Assembly (NCBI GenBank): GCA_016786585.1
Contig: JAEUUI010000005.1
Span: 1 to 41,834 of the forward strand
Direction: 5' to 3'
Source of the DNA: Cyclobacteriaceae bacterium
GTDB taxonomy: Bacteria > Bacteroidota > Bacteroidia > Cytophagales > Cyclobacteriaceae
DNA: 41,834 bases
Below the pieces are notes generated by a model that did not search any database, was not told the origin of the DNA, and was given only the letters and a program-made list of their open reading frames with translations. A program made the position numbers and the translations under genes. This document shows positions 10,762 to 17,064 of the stretch, piece after piece (the stretch's first letter is position 1; each line of letters opens with the position of its first letter).

Positions 10762-10791
10762 TTGTATCTACAACTATTGTCGGTACTTTTA
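10762..10791 (+). promoter_or_regulatory. marR promoter with overlapping MarR-type operator
   Basis: The palindrome TTGTA-TC-TACAA (10762-10773) continues as ACAAC-T-ATTGT, and TACAA-ACA-TTGTA lies just before it (10754-10766), giving overlapping TTGTA half-sites. TTGT at 10762-10765 can serve as the -33 element, with 18 nt to TACTTTTA (10784-10791) as a -7 box. These 30 bases align without gaps to 15369-15398 upstream of the pirin operon at 23 of 30 positions. The layout indicates autoregulation plus control of the pirin operon. Confidence 0.65.
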
Positions 10792-10815
10792 CGTTATCCA
10801 AAAAAAGCCGTACGC

Positions 10816-11265
10816 ATGGCGCTCGAAGACGATATCCGCCAGGACAAATTTGAAAACGAACACCATAAGATGGCTGTCAACATTTTGTTTACAGGCAGCT
10901 GGCTGCATAATCTTAATGCGCTGCGGTTTAAGCCGTTTGAGATTACACCCGAGCAATACAATGTTCTCCGCATTTTGCGGGGTAGCCATCCGAAGCCGTT
11001 GATGCTAACGGAAGTCACTTCGCGTATGCTTGATAAGAGCAGTAATGCGACAAGGCTTGTGGAGAAACTTCGTCAGAAAGGTTTAGTGAAACGTGAAATT
11101 TGTGAAACCAATCGCAGGCAGGTCGACATCATCATCACCGATAAGGGTTTATCACTGTTAACAAAAATCGACAAGACAACCGATGACTGGATGAAGACAA
11201 TGAAAAATCTTAGTCGTCAGGATGCGCAGGAACTGAATCGCCTGCTTGATAAACTTCGCGGATAA
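10816..11265 (+). CDS. MarR family transcriptional regulator
   Basis: A 149-residue winged-helix repressor. N-terminal dimerisation helices are followed by TPEQYNVLRILRG, the recognition region LTEVTSRMLDKSSNATRLVE (about 64-83), and the wing VKREICETNRRQVDIIITDKG (split: VKREICETNRR, then QVDIIITDKG). The only cysteine is C96 in the wing, so there is no OhrR-type N-terminal redox cysteine. I chose the ATG at 10816 because the longer frame would begin inside the operator at 10762. The same operator occurs before the pirin-pirin-OsmC-YjdI operon, so this is probably its repressor, released by an electrophile, quinone or oxidant. The target assignment is inference. Confidence 0.9.
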   Translation: MALEDDIRQDKFENEHHKMAVNILFTGSWLHNLNALRFKPFEITPEQYNVLRILRGSHPKPLMLTEVTSRMLDKSSNATRLVEKLRQKGLVKREICETNRRQVDIIITDKGLSLLTKIDKTTDDWMKTMKNLSRQDAQELNRLLDKLRG

Positions 11266-11350: not shown

Positions 11351-13660
11351 CTATTCCTTGATTACTTTTCGCGTGTGGGTTCTTCCGGCAATCGTAGCCC
11401 GAACAATGTACATGCCGCTTGGATGCGATGTTAAATCAAACTCCAGTGTTTCGTTTGTTCTTGCCTGACGACCGATAATCCGGGCACCGGTAGCGGAAAA
11501 GAATTCGATGCTTACCGGCTGATTAAGCGGTGTACCCACATTCACCTGAACTTTGTCCTTTACCGGGTTGGCAAAAATCTGGAATTCAGGTTCTCCGTAT
11601 TGTTCTTGCAGGTCAATGGTCTCCGCCTGGCCTACCCGAACACCCGGATCACTGAAGGCTACGTATTCGCTTTGTTTAACATACACGGCATATCCGCGGG
11701 CTGGTGCCGAAAGATATACGCGACCATCTGCTTGGACCGTTACTGTTTCTGAAGAATTGAACGCGTTGACAAGTGTAGTACTTGCCCAGCTTGTCCAGCC
11801 GGAAGGCGAAGAATCTACCCAAAGACCTTTGGTTGACGAATCGTGGTTGTTGATCACCACAATTGCTCCGCTCTTTGTTCCGTTGCCGGCTCTCCGGGCG
11901 ATGTAAACGTTATATGCGTCCCCGGAAGGATATGGATTACCCACTTCGCTCAACACCGTAAGCGTTCCGCCCAAATAAGTTTTGCGAACATGAATGAGTT
12001 TCCGGATGTCTGTTCCCAACGTGTTGGAGGGTGTTACCGTTAACGAATTGTTATGCGCATCGGTCATTACATCACCGAAGTAGTGGTTATAAAAAACGCA
12101 AGGCCGGCCCTCGTGTGTAAGGATATAAGCATATCCCATCTTCCAGTCTTTGGTTATCCACTTGTCGTGTTCTTTTCCGGTATCGTGATTTTCCAGCCAA
12201 GTTACAATAGAAGTTCCCGGTAACGAATTGCCCACATTGTTTCGCACCATGCCTGAGTGGTTCAGCCAGCGCATGTCCCACGAACTTCCGTATCCGTTAC
12301 ACATTCCGGTAAGGGTCGACTTCAGCGGGAAGTCAAATCCATCAACATCTGCCCCGTACGAGGCCACGTTATTAACCCAGTTCTTGATGCGGTAATCTGC
12401 ACCCCAGTATTCGCCCACAATGAAACGCTGGCTACCGCTTTTCAACGGAAGGTTGTTAACCCATCCTGCAACGTAACTTTCCTGGAAGCCGCGAACGAAA
12501 TCAAGACGGAAACCATCAAATCCAATCTGGTTACATAACCAGGCACCCCAGTCTTTATAACGTGTTGCTACGGTTGTGCTGAACGTGTTTAAATCATTTC
12601 CGAAAAACTTCGTGTTGGTAATGATCTCGTCAGAGCCCGGGTATCCCAGCCAGTCAGCATTATCAACCGGATGGAAGTCGCTGTACGTCCAGGTATAATT
12701 TGGTTCACCTGTGCCTGTATGGGTTGGATACGTAATGCTGGTGTTGGTATGCGCTTCCAGTTGAGATGTTGTGGCGATGTTGGTAGCACCTTTCCAGATT
12801 GCTTTCGGATAGTATCCGTTGGTTTGATCGGCCCATTCCCACGCCCAAGACGGGCTGGTGATTTCTTTGCGTGCCGTGAGGCGAATGATTACGTCTTTGG
12901 TTCCGGTCACGGTGATTTTGTATTCATCAAAGTCGCTTACTTCAACGTGGCCCCGAACGGTATTTCCGGATGCCGGGAAAACATTAAAGTTTCCGCTGCC
13001 ATTGTTGGGTTCACTTTCCCAGGAGTAGGTGCTGTTGAAGCCGGTATTGTTATAATCGATTTGGAGGTCGTAACCGCGTTCGGCTTTTGCAGTAGAATAC
13101 AAATGATAGCCATGTATCTGGATGTAGTAATCGCCCGCGGTTGCATTTTTGATCACCCATTTTATCTCGTTCGTAGGATAAGGTGAATACTGCGTGCTGC
13201 TGCGATACGCTTCATCAAACACGTATTGTTTTACGGCAGGATTCGATTGATCTTCTGAATCGCCCGTATACAGGTGATTCAACACGATGTCCGCATATAC
13301 ATCGATGCCATCGGTATGCAATTGGCTAATCATCTGCGTAAGCTCGGTGCGCGATCCAAAACGTGTTTCGGTAGAACCTTTCTGATTATAGTTACCAAGA
13401 TCGTATGGATCGAAGATTCCGTAACCCATGTCGTAGATTCCGAAGTTTCCTTTTGACGGAGGCGGAACCCAAAGCCCTTTGAAGCCCGCATTTTTGAGTA
13501 TTGTGGACTTGTTCTTCAGGTTGGTCCACCACGAGCCGTTCAGATTCACAGCATCAACGGGAACATCCCAGTAAAATCCCTGCATCATCACATCATTTTG
13601 TGCTGAAGCAGGCAATGAAAGCCAAAGTGTCAATAGACAAAAGAGTAAAGTTTTTTTCAT
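11351..13660 (-). CDS. Secreted GH13 alpha-amylase with T9SS sorting domain
   Basis: A 769-residue alpha-amylase predicted to hydrolyse internal alpha-1,4 bonds of starch outside the cell. A signal peptide (about 1-20) is followed by VMMQGFYWDVP, as in liquefying-type (GH13_5-like) enzymes. Conserved regions are I DIVLNH (124-129), II GFRLD (nucleophile D387), III VGEYW (acid E417) and IV NHD (491-493), so the catalytic triad is complete. Regions I and II are about 260 residues apart, roughly twice the usual distance. The extra beta-rich segment (about 160-300) contains GDYYIQIHGYHLYS. A beta-domain follows, and the end (FANPVKDKVQV to HTRKVIKE) is a T9SS C-terminal domain. The gene lies downstream of the membrane AraC regulator on the same strand. 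Confidence 0.95.
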   Translation of the reverse strand: MKKTLLFCLLTLWLSLPASAQNDVMMQGFYWDVPVDAVNLNGSWWTNLKNKSTILKNAGFKGLWVPPPSKGNFGIYDMGYGIFDPYDLGNYNQKGSTETRFGSRTELTQMISQLHTDGIDVYADIVLNHLYTGDSEDQSNPAVKQYVFDEAYRSSTQYSPYPTNEIKWVIKNATAGDYYIQIHGYHLYSTAKAERGYDLQIDYNNTGFNSTYSWESEPNNGSGNFNVFPASGNTVRGHVEVSDFDEYKITVTGTKDVIIRLTARKEITSPSWAWEWADQTNGYYPKAIWKGATNIATTSQLEAHTNTSITYPTHTGTGEPNYTWTYSDFHPVDNADWLGYPGSDEIITNTKFFGNDLNTFSTTVATRYKDWGAWLCNQIGFDGFRLDFVRGFQESYVAGWVNNLPLKSGSQRFIVGEYWGADYRIKNWVNNVASYGADVDGFDFPLKSTLTGMCNGYGSSWDMRWLNHSGMVRNNVGNSLPGTSIVTWLENHDTGKEHDKWITKDWKMGYAYILTHEGRPCVFYNHYFGDVMTDAHNNSLTVTPSNTLGTDIRKLIHVRKTYLGGTLTVLSEVGNPYPSGDAYNVYIARRAGNGTKSGAIVVINNHDSSTKGLWVDSSPSGWTSWASTTLVNAFNSSETVTVQADGRVYLSAPARGYAVYVKQSEYVAFSDPGVRVGQAETIDLQEQYGEPEFQIFANPVKDKVQVNVGTPLNQPVSIEFFSATGARIIGRQARTNETLEFDLTSHPSGMYIVRATIAGRTHTRKVIKE

Positions 13661-13768
13661 AGATCAGTCTGCTTGATTTGTAAGACCGAAAATGAAGGAA
13701 AGGGCAACCGCAAACGTCCTATTTTCTTAAAACCACGCCAATTGGAGCGATAAAAATGGCGCGTTTTA

Positions 13769-13795
13769 AAAATTTAGGAGGTTCAGAAACTCCTA
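13769..13795 (-). terminator. Probable terminator of the AraC-type regulator gene
   Basis: On the minus strand, TAGGAGTTTC-TGAACCTCCTA forms a hairpin (13775-13795, one mismatch) that begins at the regulator's own TAG stop codon. It is followed by AAATTTTT. It separates the regulator from the amylase gene, so the amylase probably has its own promoter in the 130-base gap. Confidence 0.55.
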
Positions 13796-15238
13796 GGCAT
13801 GTGTTTTAAAGTATTCGCGCGGGTTTTGGCGGGTGAGCTTTTTAAACGCCAGGTTAAAAGTCGATTTGGAATTAAACCCGACTTCCTGCGCCAGTGCCAA
13901 AAAGGTATAATGCTTGTATTGCTGATCGTTGGCCAGAACAATGAATTCCTCCACGCGATAGGTGTTTACAAAATCGCGGAAATTCTTGCGGTAGTGATCG
14001 TTGATTACGCGTGAAAGCACGTGCGGCCGGGTTCCGAGCATTTCTGCCAGATCAGACACCGAAAGATCAGGGTGACGATACGGTTTTTCTGCTGTCATTA
14101 GTTCGTTCAGCTTGATAAGCCATTCGAGATTGTTTTCAGAACCTGACTGAACAGTTTTTTCTTCGCGGATGATCTCCGGGTATCTCCAGAAGAAATAGGT
14201 TTCGAGAAATATCAACGCGGAAAGGGCAATGCCGATCATCTGAAAATCTTCAAAAAACGGATGTACAAATCCGTTAACGAGCAGGAATGTGTTTACCGGT
14301 ATCAGCAACAACGCAAGAAAGGATAACCAGAAGAAATAGTATCCAAACGAAGTGTGTTCGGTGTGTTGTGTCACCTGGTGGAGTTTTAGTTCAGGATACA
14401 ATGACAGCATCCGCAGAAAGACAAACAGGTTAAACGAAAAACTGATCGCGATGAATAATGTATTCCCCAGCGTAAGCGGAGGATAGAGAATCATTGAGAG
14501 AAAATCGAGCGCGTGAAGGTTGAAAATGCGGAGCATTACTACTAACCCGGCAACGATTACCGGAATAAAATATACGCGCGTGTTTATAAATTTCTTTTGA
14601 CCGGAGAACGCCTTCAAAAATATCATCAGTACAGGTGCCCAGCAGAACGCAGCAACGTGAAATATGAACACGAAATAACTCTGTTGAATCGGGTTGACGA
14701 TTTCATGCAATACAGCAAGCAACAGCAACGCGATCATCAATCCATTGATGAGCAAAAATGATTTGAATTTTTCCGCATCGCGCTTTGTAATTCTGGATAC
14801 CAGGAAACAAAGGCCCATACCCTGAAACGCGCAGGCAAAGAAATAAAAGATCAGGTAGTTTATCTGGCGTGCACCTCCCAGGTCGAGCCAGTTTTCAATC
14901 CGGACGTGTACGGTTTCTCCGTTGCCAAACGAGAACTCCCGGTTCGCGATCATCCGGTTCTCCGCATCGGTTTCAACCTTGTTCCAGCTGCCGCGTGTAA
15001 ACTTATATTCGATTTTACCGTTGGCAGCCGGGAGCGTAACACTTAACTGTCCGTTGAGTTGCTTGTGTACGATGTACCGTTTGTCGTTGGGCACCCAGTC
15101 GTTAAAGGATCCGCATACAAAAAGCGTATCGCTGCTATGCGTGGCACCCGGCAGGGTTTCAACAACAAGCGTTACCTGCGCCTGTGTAAAATACCCCGTC
15201 AAACAAAGCATCACCCCAAGGATTCCGTTCTTCAGCAT
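13793..15238 (-). CDS. Membrane-bound AraC-type regulator with periplasmic starch-binding-like domain and seven TM helices
   Basis: The 481-residue protein has an unusual order of domains. A signal peptide (1-20, FTQAQ cleavage region) is followed by a beta-sandwich (about 37-115) with GSFNDWVPND and IEYKFTRGSWNKVE, the pattern of CBM48/CBM20-like carbohydrate-binding domains, keeping the aromatic residues W48 and W85. Seven hydrophobic helices follow (about 126-148, 160-180, 187-210, 221-240, 250-278, 298-322, 332-352). Residues 390-480 form an AraC-type DNA-binding domain with LSVSDLAEMLGTRPHVLSRV and EVGFNSKSTFNLAFKKLT then NPREYF. I chose the ATG at 15238 because it starts the signal peptide. 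It lies directly upstream of the amylase, so it may sense maltodextrins outside and switch the amylase on. That role is inference. Confidence 0.85.
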   Translation of the reverse strand: MLKNGILGVMLCLTGYFTQAQVTLVVETLPGATHSSDTLFVCGSFNDWVPNDKRYIVHKQLNGQLSVTLPAANGKIEYKFTRGSWNKVETDAENRMIANREFSFGNGETVHVRIENWLDLGGARQINYLIFYFFACAFQGMGLCFLVSRITKRDAEKFKSFLLINGLMIALLLLAVLHEIVNPIQQSYFVFIFHVAAFCWAPVLMIFLKAFSGQKKFINTRVYFIPVIVAGLVVMLRIFNLHALDFLSMILYPPLTLGNTLFIAISFSFNLFVFLRMLSLYPELKLHQVTQHTEHTSFGYYFFWLSFLALLLIPVNTFLLVNGFVHPFFEDFQMIGIALSALIFLETYFFWRYPEIIREEKTVQSGSENNLEWLIKLNELMTAEKPYRHPDLSVSDLAEMLGTRPHVLSRVINDHYRKNFRDFVNTYRVEEFIVLANDQQYKHYTFLALAQEVGFNSKSTFNLAFKKLTRQNPREYFKTHA

Positions 15239-15368
15239 ACAGCGATTGACCCCTTTCAAAGATAGCCACAAGCCTCGGTTGGTGGTCGGGCATTAACCAC
15301 CCGTTATCGGTTGAAAACGCAGAAAAACATACATCTAACCAGCTGTTTCGTCAATTTCGATCAAATAC

Positions 15369-15398
15369 TTGTATATACAATAATTGTTGCAACTTTAA
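15369..15398 (+). promoter_or_regulatory. Pirin operon promoter with MarR-type operator
   Basis: The perfect palindrome TTGTATATACAA (15369-15380) runs on into the second palindrome ACAAT-A-ATTGT (15378-15388). TTGT at 15369 and AACTTTAA at 15391-15398 sit at the same spacing as the marR promoter elements. It lies about 77 bases upstream of the first pirin ATG. Confidence 0.65.
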
Positions 15399-15445
15399 TT
15401 GCTCCGAATGCGTTAACCAGACAAAAGCAATTAACTTACAGTTCT

Positions 15446-16156
15446 ATGAAAACCATACTCCATAAAGCCCAAAGCCGCGGTCATGCAAACCACGGCTGGC
15501 TGGATTCGCATCACACCTTCAGTTTTGCCGGATATTACGATCCATCGCGCGTGAACTTTGGTGCATTGCGCGTACTGAACGATGACATTGTAAAAGGAGG
15601 AGCAGGCTTTGGCCGCCATCCGCACGATAACATGGAGATTATTTCCATACCATTGGCCGGAGCGCTGGAACATGGTGATAACGCAGGTGGCCATGGTGTT
15701 ATCAGGTCGGGTGAGGTGCAGATTATGAGCGCGGGCTCCGGTATTACCCACAGCGAGAAGAATGCATCCGAAACGGAAAGCGTTAACTTTTTACAAATCT
15801 GGGTTTTCCCGAAAATGCGCGACATCCAGCCACGGTATGACCAAAAGTTGTTCCCTGCTGAAGATCGCATCAATAAATTTCAAACCGTGGTTTCACCAGT
15901 GAAAAATGGCAACGCACTTTGGATTAATCAGGACGCGTGGTTCTCGCTCGGAAAACTGAAAGCAGGTAACTCAAGCGATTATACGTTCAACAAAAAAGAC
16001 AGTGGCGTGTATGCATTCGTCATTGACGGAGACGTAACTGTAAATGGCGAGAAGCTGAACAAACGTGACGGCCTGGGTGTTTGGGATACCGACAAGCTTA
16101 TGGTAGTTGCGGGCAGCGATGCAGAAGTTCTGTTAATGGAAGTTCCGATGAGTTAA
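15446..16156 (+). CDS. Pirin family protein (YhhW-like), first gene of stress operon
   Basis: A 236-residue bicupin of the pirin family. The N-terminal cupin contains the metal ligands H58 and H60 (GRHPHDNMEI) and H102 and E104 (ITHSEKN), matching the four-ligand set known for pirins. The N-terminal segment GHANHGWLDSHHTFSFAGYY is typical of bacterial YhhW-type pirins, some of which act as quercetin dioxygenases. The upstream extension of the frame lacks pirin similarity and overlaps the operator, so the ATG at 15446 is preferred. It heads an operon with a second pirin, OsmC and an iron-sulfur protein, probably under the MarR regulator encoded at 10816-11265. Confidence 0.93.
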   Translation: MKTILHKAQSRGHANHGWLDSHHTFSFAGYYDPSRVNFGALRVLNDDIVKGGAGFGRHPHDNMEIISIPLAGALEHGDNAGGHGVIRSGEVQIMSAGSGITHSEKNASETESVNFLQIWVFPKMRDIQPRYDQKLFPAEDRINKFQTVVSPVKNGNALWINQDAWFSLGKLKAGNSSDYTFNKKDSGVYAFVIDGDVTVNGEKLNKRDGLGVWDTDKLMVVAGSDAEVLLMEVPMS

Positions 16157-16162
16157 AAAACA

Positions 16163-16204
16163 AATGGTTCATGGTCAGTGGTGTCGGCTGTGAACCATTG
16201 ACCA
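16163..16204. repeat. Nested inverted repeat between the two pirin genes
   Basis: AATGGTTCA (16163-16171) is matched by TGAACCATT (16191-16199), and the adjacent TGGTCA (16172-16177) by TGACCA (16199-16204). The two pairings overlap and would exclude each other. There is no T-tract, so an mRNA processing or stability element is more likely than a terminator. Confidence 0.5.
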
Positions 16205-16218
16205 AACCATTGAATGTT

Positions 16219-17064
16219 ATGAAAACAAGAACCGTTTCTCATTTATTATATGCTGAAGTTGTAAGTATGGGCGGCATGCCAATCCGGCAACCATTTCCCA
16301 CAAACAATGTTCAGCGAATTGATCCATTTTTATTACTGCATCATCATAAAACCGCTGCAGGCGAACCATTTGAAGGCGTAGGCGCACATCCGCACCGTGG
16401 CTTTTCGCCCGTGTCGTTTATTTTTGAAGGCTCACTTCGCCACCAGGACAGTCGTGGTAACGACAGCATTATTTCTGCCGGAGGCATTCAATGGATGAAT
16501 GCAGGCATGGGAATTATCCATAGCGAACGGCCGGTTAACGTGGATGCTGATCTTGAGCTAATTCAGCTTTGGATCAACACACCCGCTGCATACAAAATGG
16601 ATCAGCCGGTGTACATCCCGGTAACGGCAGAAGAAGCCGGCAAATTTATCAGCGATGATAACCTGGTGAAGGCAAGCGTATTCTCAGGAGAAGTGTTGGG
16701 GATAAAAGGAAAAGTTAACGCGCTTAGCCCGGTCAATGCGGCTACTTTTGAAATTGCCAAAGGTGGTACTGTATCGATTCCGATTCCTGCTGATCATAAT
16801 GCATTCATTTATTTACTTGACGGATCTATTATGCTTGACGGCTATGGATTGGTGGAGGGCAAGAATGCGGTTGTATTTGAACGTAACGGAGATGGCATTA
16901 CGATCACCGGAAAAGAAAACACACGAATCCTTTTTATAACTGGCAAACCGTTGGAAGAAAAGGTGGTATCGTATGGCCCGTTTGTAATGAATACCCAAAC
17001 GCAAATTATGGAAGCGATGCGCGATTATCAGATGGGTAAAATGGGTGTGTTAATTGAATCCTGA
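16219..17064 (+). CDS. Pirin family protein, second copy
   Basis: A 281-residue pirin of the longer subtype, with H57 and H59 (AHPHRGF) and H101 and E103 (IIHSERP), nearly the same numbering as human pirin (H56, H58, H101, E103). The C-terminal cupin (GYGLVEGKNAVVFERNGDG) ends in a helix with MEAMRDYQMGKMG, typical of this subtype. The two pirins differ markedly in length and sequence, so they are separate subfamilies and not a recent duplication. The ATG at 16219 lies after the inverted repeat; an upstream in-frame ATG at 16171 would include part of it. Confidence 0.92.
   Translation: MKTRTVSHLLYAEVVSMGGMPIRQPFPTNNVQRIDPFLLLHHHKTAAGEPFEGVGAHPHRGFSPVSFIFEGSLRHQDSRGNDSIISAGGIQWMNAGMGIIHSERPVNVDADLELIQLWINTPAAYKMDQPVYIPVTAEEAGKFISDDNLVKASVFSGEVLGIKGKVNALSPVNAATFEIAKGGTVSIPIPADHNAFIYLLDGSIMLDGYGLVEGKNAVVFERNGDGITITGKENTRILFITGKPLEEKVVSYGPFVMNTQTQIMEAMRDYQMGKMGVLIES

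Follow-up and report, generated by a model that had tools for sequence, protein, structure and literature searches.

Starch is the founding case of glycan use in Bacteroidota, and the locus described here raises the question of whether a single membrane protein can both sense starch fragments and act on a neighbouring amylase gene. The stretch analysed, referred to as the window, comprises 41,834 nucleotides of contig JAEUUI010000005.1 from a Cyclobacteriaceae bacterium (GCA_016786585.1). On its minus strand, a gene for a protein of 481 residues (13793–15238) lies directly upstream of a gene for a GH13 alpha-amylase (11351–13660). An initial annotation, made from the sequence alone, had described this protein as a CBM-like β-sandwich, seven transmembrane helices and an AraC domain joined in one chain, and had proposed that it is a membrane-bound one-component sensor of starch. 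This is the best-supported reading, since domain-bearing relatives are tied to GH13 and Sus loci, whereas membrane AraC proteins lacking the domain show no such tie. Judged by the CBM20 fold, the conserved site residues, the seven-transmembrane (7TM)-AraC core and the gene linkage, the protein would be a one-component transcription regulator that is integrated in the membrane and controls alpha-glucan use, and we put the probability of this mechanism as a whole at roughly 0.75.

The open reading frame (ORF) of the regulator begins with an ATG at 15238 and stops at 13793, with a TTG at 15271 as a longer reading. A signal-peptide-like stretch, read from the sequence (residues 1–20, 15179–15238), is followed by the sandwich domain (residues 20–119, 14882–15181), a seven-helix membrane bundle (residues 128–352, 14183–14857) and an AraC/XylS DNA-binding domain (residues 367–480, 13799–14140), all on the minus strand. 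An AlphaFold2 model of the full protein from a 54-row alignment (predicted local distance difference test, pLDDT, 81.4; predicted TM-score, pTM, 0.60) has eight strands at 20–119, the DNA-binding domain at 367–480, and one helix for each of the seven hydrophobic segments of the sequence, at 128–148, 155–180, 183–212 (broken), 220–239, 257–290, 295–322 and 330–352; residues 363–366, within the linker after helix 7, are of low confidence. HTH_18 is matched at 45.4 bits (cut-off 33.6), with the double helix-turn-helix of the AraC/XylS family. With the AlphaFold2 boundaries, seven lysine or arginine residues fall in the presumed cytoplasmic loops and the linker, and one in the periplasmic loops, a distribution that agrees with an N-outside/C-inside orientation and would place the N-terminal domain in the periplasm. 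The protein thus has the make-up of a membrane-integrated one-component regulator, with membrane segment, DNA-binding domain and putative outer sensor in a single chain. The coordinates, domain order, seven helices, AraC domain and tryptophans at 48 and 85 of the initial annotation all hold; its CBM-like sandwich stands on structure and family evidence, and falls below threshold on sequence alone.

The architecture belongs to a large family, most members of which carry two copies of the sandwich domain. A profile of domain and bundle, searched against 390 genomes of the order including the window's own, located the domain together with the whole bundle or most of it in at least 63 places in at least 55 genomes; eight of the 63 matches cover the bundle only in part (positions 1 to 252–340 of 348). 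Together with three further proteins these make a set of 66 loci, 16 with one domain copy, 49 with two and one with three; a simple helix-turn-helix word missed three of the 66 proteins. A second, named set consists of the best 80 of 427 confirmed stretches found with peptide patterns of the sensor domain, and all 80 encode domain and bundle by profile; contigs recur between the two overlapping sets, so that their counts are not summed. Named hosts include Spirosoma, Dyadobacter, Runella, Emticicia, Flectobacillus, Chryseolinea, Flammeovirga, Saprospiraceae, Chitinophaga skermanii, Zobellia, Maribacter, Cellulophaga and Fulvivirga, among others. HTH_18 is found at E ≤ 0.01 in all 54 members of the alignment (the window regulator and 53 of the 80 named loci), and AMPK1_CBM (PF16561) at the same threshold in 17 of them, with a best value of 5.4e-7. 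Seven genomes of the order (L130–L136) have a second regulator of the same type, each next to a GH13 gene; their bundle scores are lower, and they may constitute a subgroup.

The sandwich itself was modelled alone (residues 20–119) with a pLDDT of 92.2, and both Foldseek and VIA-align place it in the CBM20 fold. In a profile alignment, the glycogen contacts W100, K126 and W133 of AMPK correspond to W48, K79 and W85 of the regulator, and the equivalents of these residues are kept in 66, 65 and 64 of the 66 loci, respectively. In the distal domain copies the three are retained in 50, 50 and 48 of 51, and they are also kept in the proximal copies. These figures are taken from the profile-found set, seven members of which seeded the profile, because the 80 named loci were found with peptide patterns of the same domain. 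Four other residues, R82, E89, R100 and W117, are conserved as well as those of the glycan site. The CBM20 family (PF00686) is absent from the families matching the window regulator at E ≤ 1 and from the 14 families with a match at E ≤ 0.01 among the 54 members, and reaches 21.3 bits (cut-off 23.3) in a related esterase.

The domain also occurs outside the regulators. It is fused to esterase-like proteins, one with PF00756 confirmed and a tail of the type IX secretion system (T9SS) (L008:1489-2901), and two recognised by eye (L018:1474-2661 and L016:1399-2568). Stand-alone tandem copies with signal- or lipoprotein-like starts are found in three genomes (L043:9132-12657, L044:9989-12910 and L045:6732-9724), next to genes for a LytTR response regulator and for a PF06580 histidine kinase, in what looks like a split, two-component version of the regulator; the L044 neighbourhood also holds a LacI-like gene (by eye) and genes for a TonB receptor and a major facilitator superfamily (MFS) protein.

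Whether homologues have an amylase nearby had been suggested as a check, and a GH13 catalytic region lies in the fetched flank of 49 of the 66 loci, adjoining the regulator in 33; the figures for the named set are 58 of 80 and 28. An earlier assignment by phmmer against a six-protein panel that included some carbohydrate-binding parts gave 50 of 66, and L125 was dropped when only catalytic parts were used. PF00128 was confirmed in all nine further panel-matched neighbours, besides the panel proteins. SusD is encoded within four genes of the regulator in 28 of 66 loci (50 of 80 named loci), and GH13 or SusD is near in 56 of 66 with the fuller panel, or 55 without L125. The GH13 contexts are varied. 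In L183 the GH13 ORF overlaps that of the regulator, and in the starch locus of G033 (L038) one side holds LacI, GH31 and GH13 genes with an MFS-like gene (by eye), and the other SusC, SusD, a CBM48-GH13 amylase and two SusE/F-like genes (by eye). In the window's own genus, regulator and amylase each occur in two of 17 genomes, and these are the same two.

As a control set we used 42 membrane AraC proteins that lack the domain, taken from 17 of the same genomes and the window's genome (two controls), 40 of them drawn from the 7TM-AraC profile matches roughly by E-value order. They are 338–482 residues long with 2–7 hydrophobic segments by a crude count, 35 match a 7TM profile (13 of these built it), and none contains the sensor domain at E ≤ 0.01. 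Their bundle is homologous to that of the regulators (profile probability 98.2%, E 3.9e-14), and their profile also matches the domain-bearing regulators over bundle and helix-turn-helix; however, GH13 is near only one of the 42 (L222), and SusD is within four genes of none. The exception, L222:9278-10561, lies 79 bp from a GH13 gene, and its host G048 has a domain-bearing regulator elsewhere.

A recurrent promoter element may be the site at which these regulators act. The training set comprised all 29 named loci in which the regulator is followed by a co-oriented susC; AAAGTGG is the most frequent 7-mer in the intervening gap (24 of 29 gaps), and with at most one mismatch it stands 31 or 32 bp before TAnnTTTG, the Bacteroidota promoter box, in 28 of 29. 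Exact copies at this spacing are present in 18 of 29 gaps and in 0 of 300 shuffles. A position just upstream of the promoter box is where an AraC activator touching RNA polymerase would sit. Outside the training set the agreement is partial: five f13 GH13 promoters score 10.9–18.8 and a Larkinella promoter 21.2, with the box at the same spacing in four of the five and in Larkinella. A second AAAGTGG copy further upstream in many susC gaps was left uncounted, as by eye it resembles part of a terminator stem. In the window, the weight matrix points to a candidate operator, AAAATAGGACGTT, before the amylase (13713–13725, minus strand). Its first ten letters, AAAATAGGAC, are common to all four window-type gaps; in a three-way comparison (window, L126 and L128) the longest word shared in 2,000 shuffles was nine letters.

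Several observations weigh against a starch-responsive regulator acting through this element. The AMPK1_CBM match of the window regulator is below the curated cut-off (E 0.057, 14.1 versus 26.8 bits), and none of the CBM-family Pfam cut-offs is reached; the domain on esterases and in stand-alone tandems implies that starch specificity need not hold everywhere. No GH13 catalytic region was found in the fetched flank of 17 of 66 loci, and with the fuller panel ten of 66 have neither GH13 nor SusD within four genes, among them two on contigs shorter than 8 kb, two (L098 and L106) with SusC/SusD five or six genes off, and four (L119, L121, L123 and L124) that by eye share a syntenic spot with L114, which has a 2,002-residue amylase immediately upstream, a pattern that could reflect loss or gain of an amylase. 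Many of the loci are syntenic, and the species that supplied the susC gaps are related, with 12 distinct 13-mers among 28. In the window, AAAATAGGACGTT scores 9.8 bits, and 3.4 percent of other upstream regions reach 10; no good TAnnTTTG box was found with it, and it overlaps the 3' arm of a hairpin (z -2.99 over 13661–13792), for which reason it is listed as a candidate only and could belong to a terminator-like structure instead. Finally, the element has low scores ahead of the GH13 genes that adjoin L129–L136 (second-type Flammeovirga regulators) and most Flavobacteriaceae regulators, unlike the GH13 promoter of Cellulophaga L205 (14.0), so that the low-scoring members must depend on another site or differ otherwise.

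Three other explanations of the locus were weighed against alpha-glucan sensing by the sandwich. The regulator could control starch genes with a sandwich that only tethers it or makes contact with a partner, for instance a Sus protein, the signal entering via the bundle or another component. Proteins with a homologous bundle and no domain indicate that the core can work alone, and R82, E89, R100 and W117 could mark a protein contact; however, the W/K/W site is kept in proximal and distal copies alike, and GH13 linkage tracks the presence of the domain (49/66 versus 1/42), which makes a sandwich without a sensing role unlikely. A little less likely again is that alpha-glucan is sensed as proposed but the AraC domain is released by proteolysis, or represses until starch lifts it: the low-confidence part of the linker after helix 7 would allow for this, yet the position of the element, immediately ahead of the promoter box, agrees with an activator.

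The third, that an ordinary 7TM-AraC regulator with an unrelated sandwich happens to adjoin an amylase, has in its favour that membrane AraC genes are common in the same genomes and that the CBM sequence match of the window regulator is weak. It is strongly disfavoured, and very improbable in our estimate, given the starch-domain fold, the varied GH13 contexts and a Fisher p of ~2e-15 for the linkage (50/66 versus 1/42, with related loci not independent); the control set and the co-occurrence with the amylase in the genus led us to reject it. Since 25 of the genomes examined have 5–22 PF00128 matches each, chance adjacency should be rare, at an estimated <1 percent per gene. Sensing of alpha-glucan by a membrane-integrated one-component regulator is the reading that we retain.

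The presumed target is, as annotated, a GH13 alpha-amylase (PF00128), presumed secreted, with a signal-peptide-like N-terminus and a Por_Secre_tail C-terminus of T9SS type A. It is located 132 bp downstream of the regulator gene. Its best match is to PRK09441-type alpha-amylases, under the curated cut-off of that model, and it contains three catalytic-site motifs. The PRK09441 models cover approximately residues 16–279 and 307–662, in two pieces each with differing breaks, and the split match suggests an insertion after about residue 140. Against congener G011 (L035), the window shows 95% identity over 690 residues in the amylase but 74% in the sensor and bundle of the regulator, so that the regulator appears to evolve more quickly than the amylase, its presumed target. 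Around the pair lie a MarR-family gene and pirin genes (10762–11265 and 15311–17064). By eye, the regulators of L080 and L083 also have similar-looking MarR genes in their vicinity, and that of L088 adjoins a pirin-like gene, a recurrence that is possibly coincidental.

TfoS of Vibrio, which has an AraC-type domain that binds DNA directly, is not known to have a CBM20 fold or a seven-helix bundle, and SusR of Bacteroides is not known to have a CBM20-7TM-AraC layout. The two proteins are compared with the regulator by description. TfoS regulates transcription while bound to the membrane, and its periplasmic sensor is linked to chitin oligosaccharides; it thus resembles the regulator in responding to polysaccharide fragments from the membrane, but differs in its hybrid two-component system-like sensor domain and in its ligand, chitin instead of starch (PMC7564644). 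SusR responds to maltose or maltooligosaccharides in the periplasm by raising expression of the sus genes (PMC11633381, PMC10316084), a role like that proposed here. A 2023 paper gives SusR-like, hybrid two-component and sigma/anti-sigma regulators as the Bacteroidota-specific types for such loci (PMC10316084). The literature searched, of incomplete coverage, yielded no description of the CBM20-7TM-AraC layout, nor did the available text of that paper for the types it lists, and the protein is accordingly rated a new form of membrane one-component regulator. To this extent the initial annotation, which knew of no system with this domain order, stands; its apparent uniqueness gives way to a large family, mostly with two domain copies, and to the precedent of TfoS.

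Hybrid two-component systems likewise join a periplasmic glycan sensor and an AraC-type output in one chain (PMC3878776), but have kinase and receiver domains, none of which is found in the window regulator or among the 14 families at E ≤ 0.01 in the 54 members; membership in this class is excluded on that ground. In AMPK, glycan binding to the domain regulates a signalling protein (PMC2642990). The sensor shares fold and W/K/W site with the glycogen-binding domain of AMPK beta and with CBM20 domains, but is predicted to be periplasmic, is fused to a membrane transcription factor, and lies below the Pfam cut-offs in sequence. Members of the ToxR family have a single transmembrane helix and carry their DNA-binding domain at the N-terminus (PMC5936718), whereas the regulator has seven helices and a C-terminal DNA-binding domain. 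Its bundle shares the helix arrangement of the transmembrane domain of a class C G-protein-coupled receptor (GPCR), mGlu2, at 7% identity and with no claim of common ancestry, but its output is a fused DNA-binding domain. Membership of 7TMR-DISM was rejected for lack of profile similarity (hhalign probability 0.2 percent against seven PF07695 bundles; PF07695 not among the 14 families in the 54 members).

In the proposed mechanism, starch fragments released outside would reach the periplasm, where the CBM20-fold domain would bind starch or maltooligosaccharides via W48, K79 and W85 and thereby shift the seven-helix bundle. On the cytoplasmic side, and still in the membrane, the AraC domain would then bind an operator just upstream of the amylase promoter and activate the neighbouring amylase or, in relatives, susC or a GH13 gene. 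The domain layout, the fold, the conserved site residues, the gene linkage and the evenly spaced element of the relatives come from computation, whereas the orientation, the ligand binding, the signal transfer by the helices, the activating effect and the assignment of the element to the regulator are inferences. Probably these proteins constitute a fourth regulator class for Bacteroidota polysaccharide loci, besides SusR-like, hybrid two-component and extracytoplasmic function (ECF) sigma/anti-sigma regulators: a GPCR-like receptor of seven helices, equipped with a periplasmic starch-binding domain, that also serves as the transcription factor and does so from the membrane, its targets in many relatives being AAAGTGGRACGA sites 31–32 bp ahead of the susC or amylase promoter box. 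The predicted ligand, binding residues, candidate operator and named hosts make the regulator directly testable. If the reading is correct, the family would add a widespread direct-acting receptor to starch regulation in Bacteroidota, and would provide a natural case of a seven-helix bundle, in a class C GPCR-like arrangement, that passes its signal straight to DNA.

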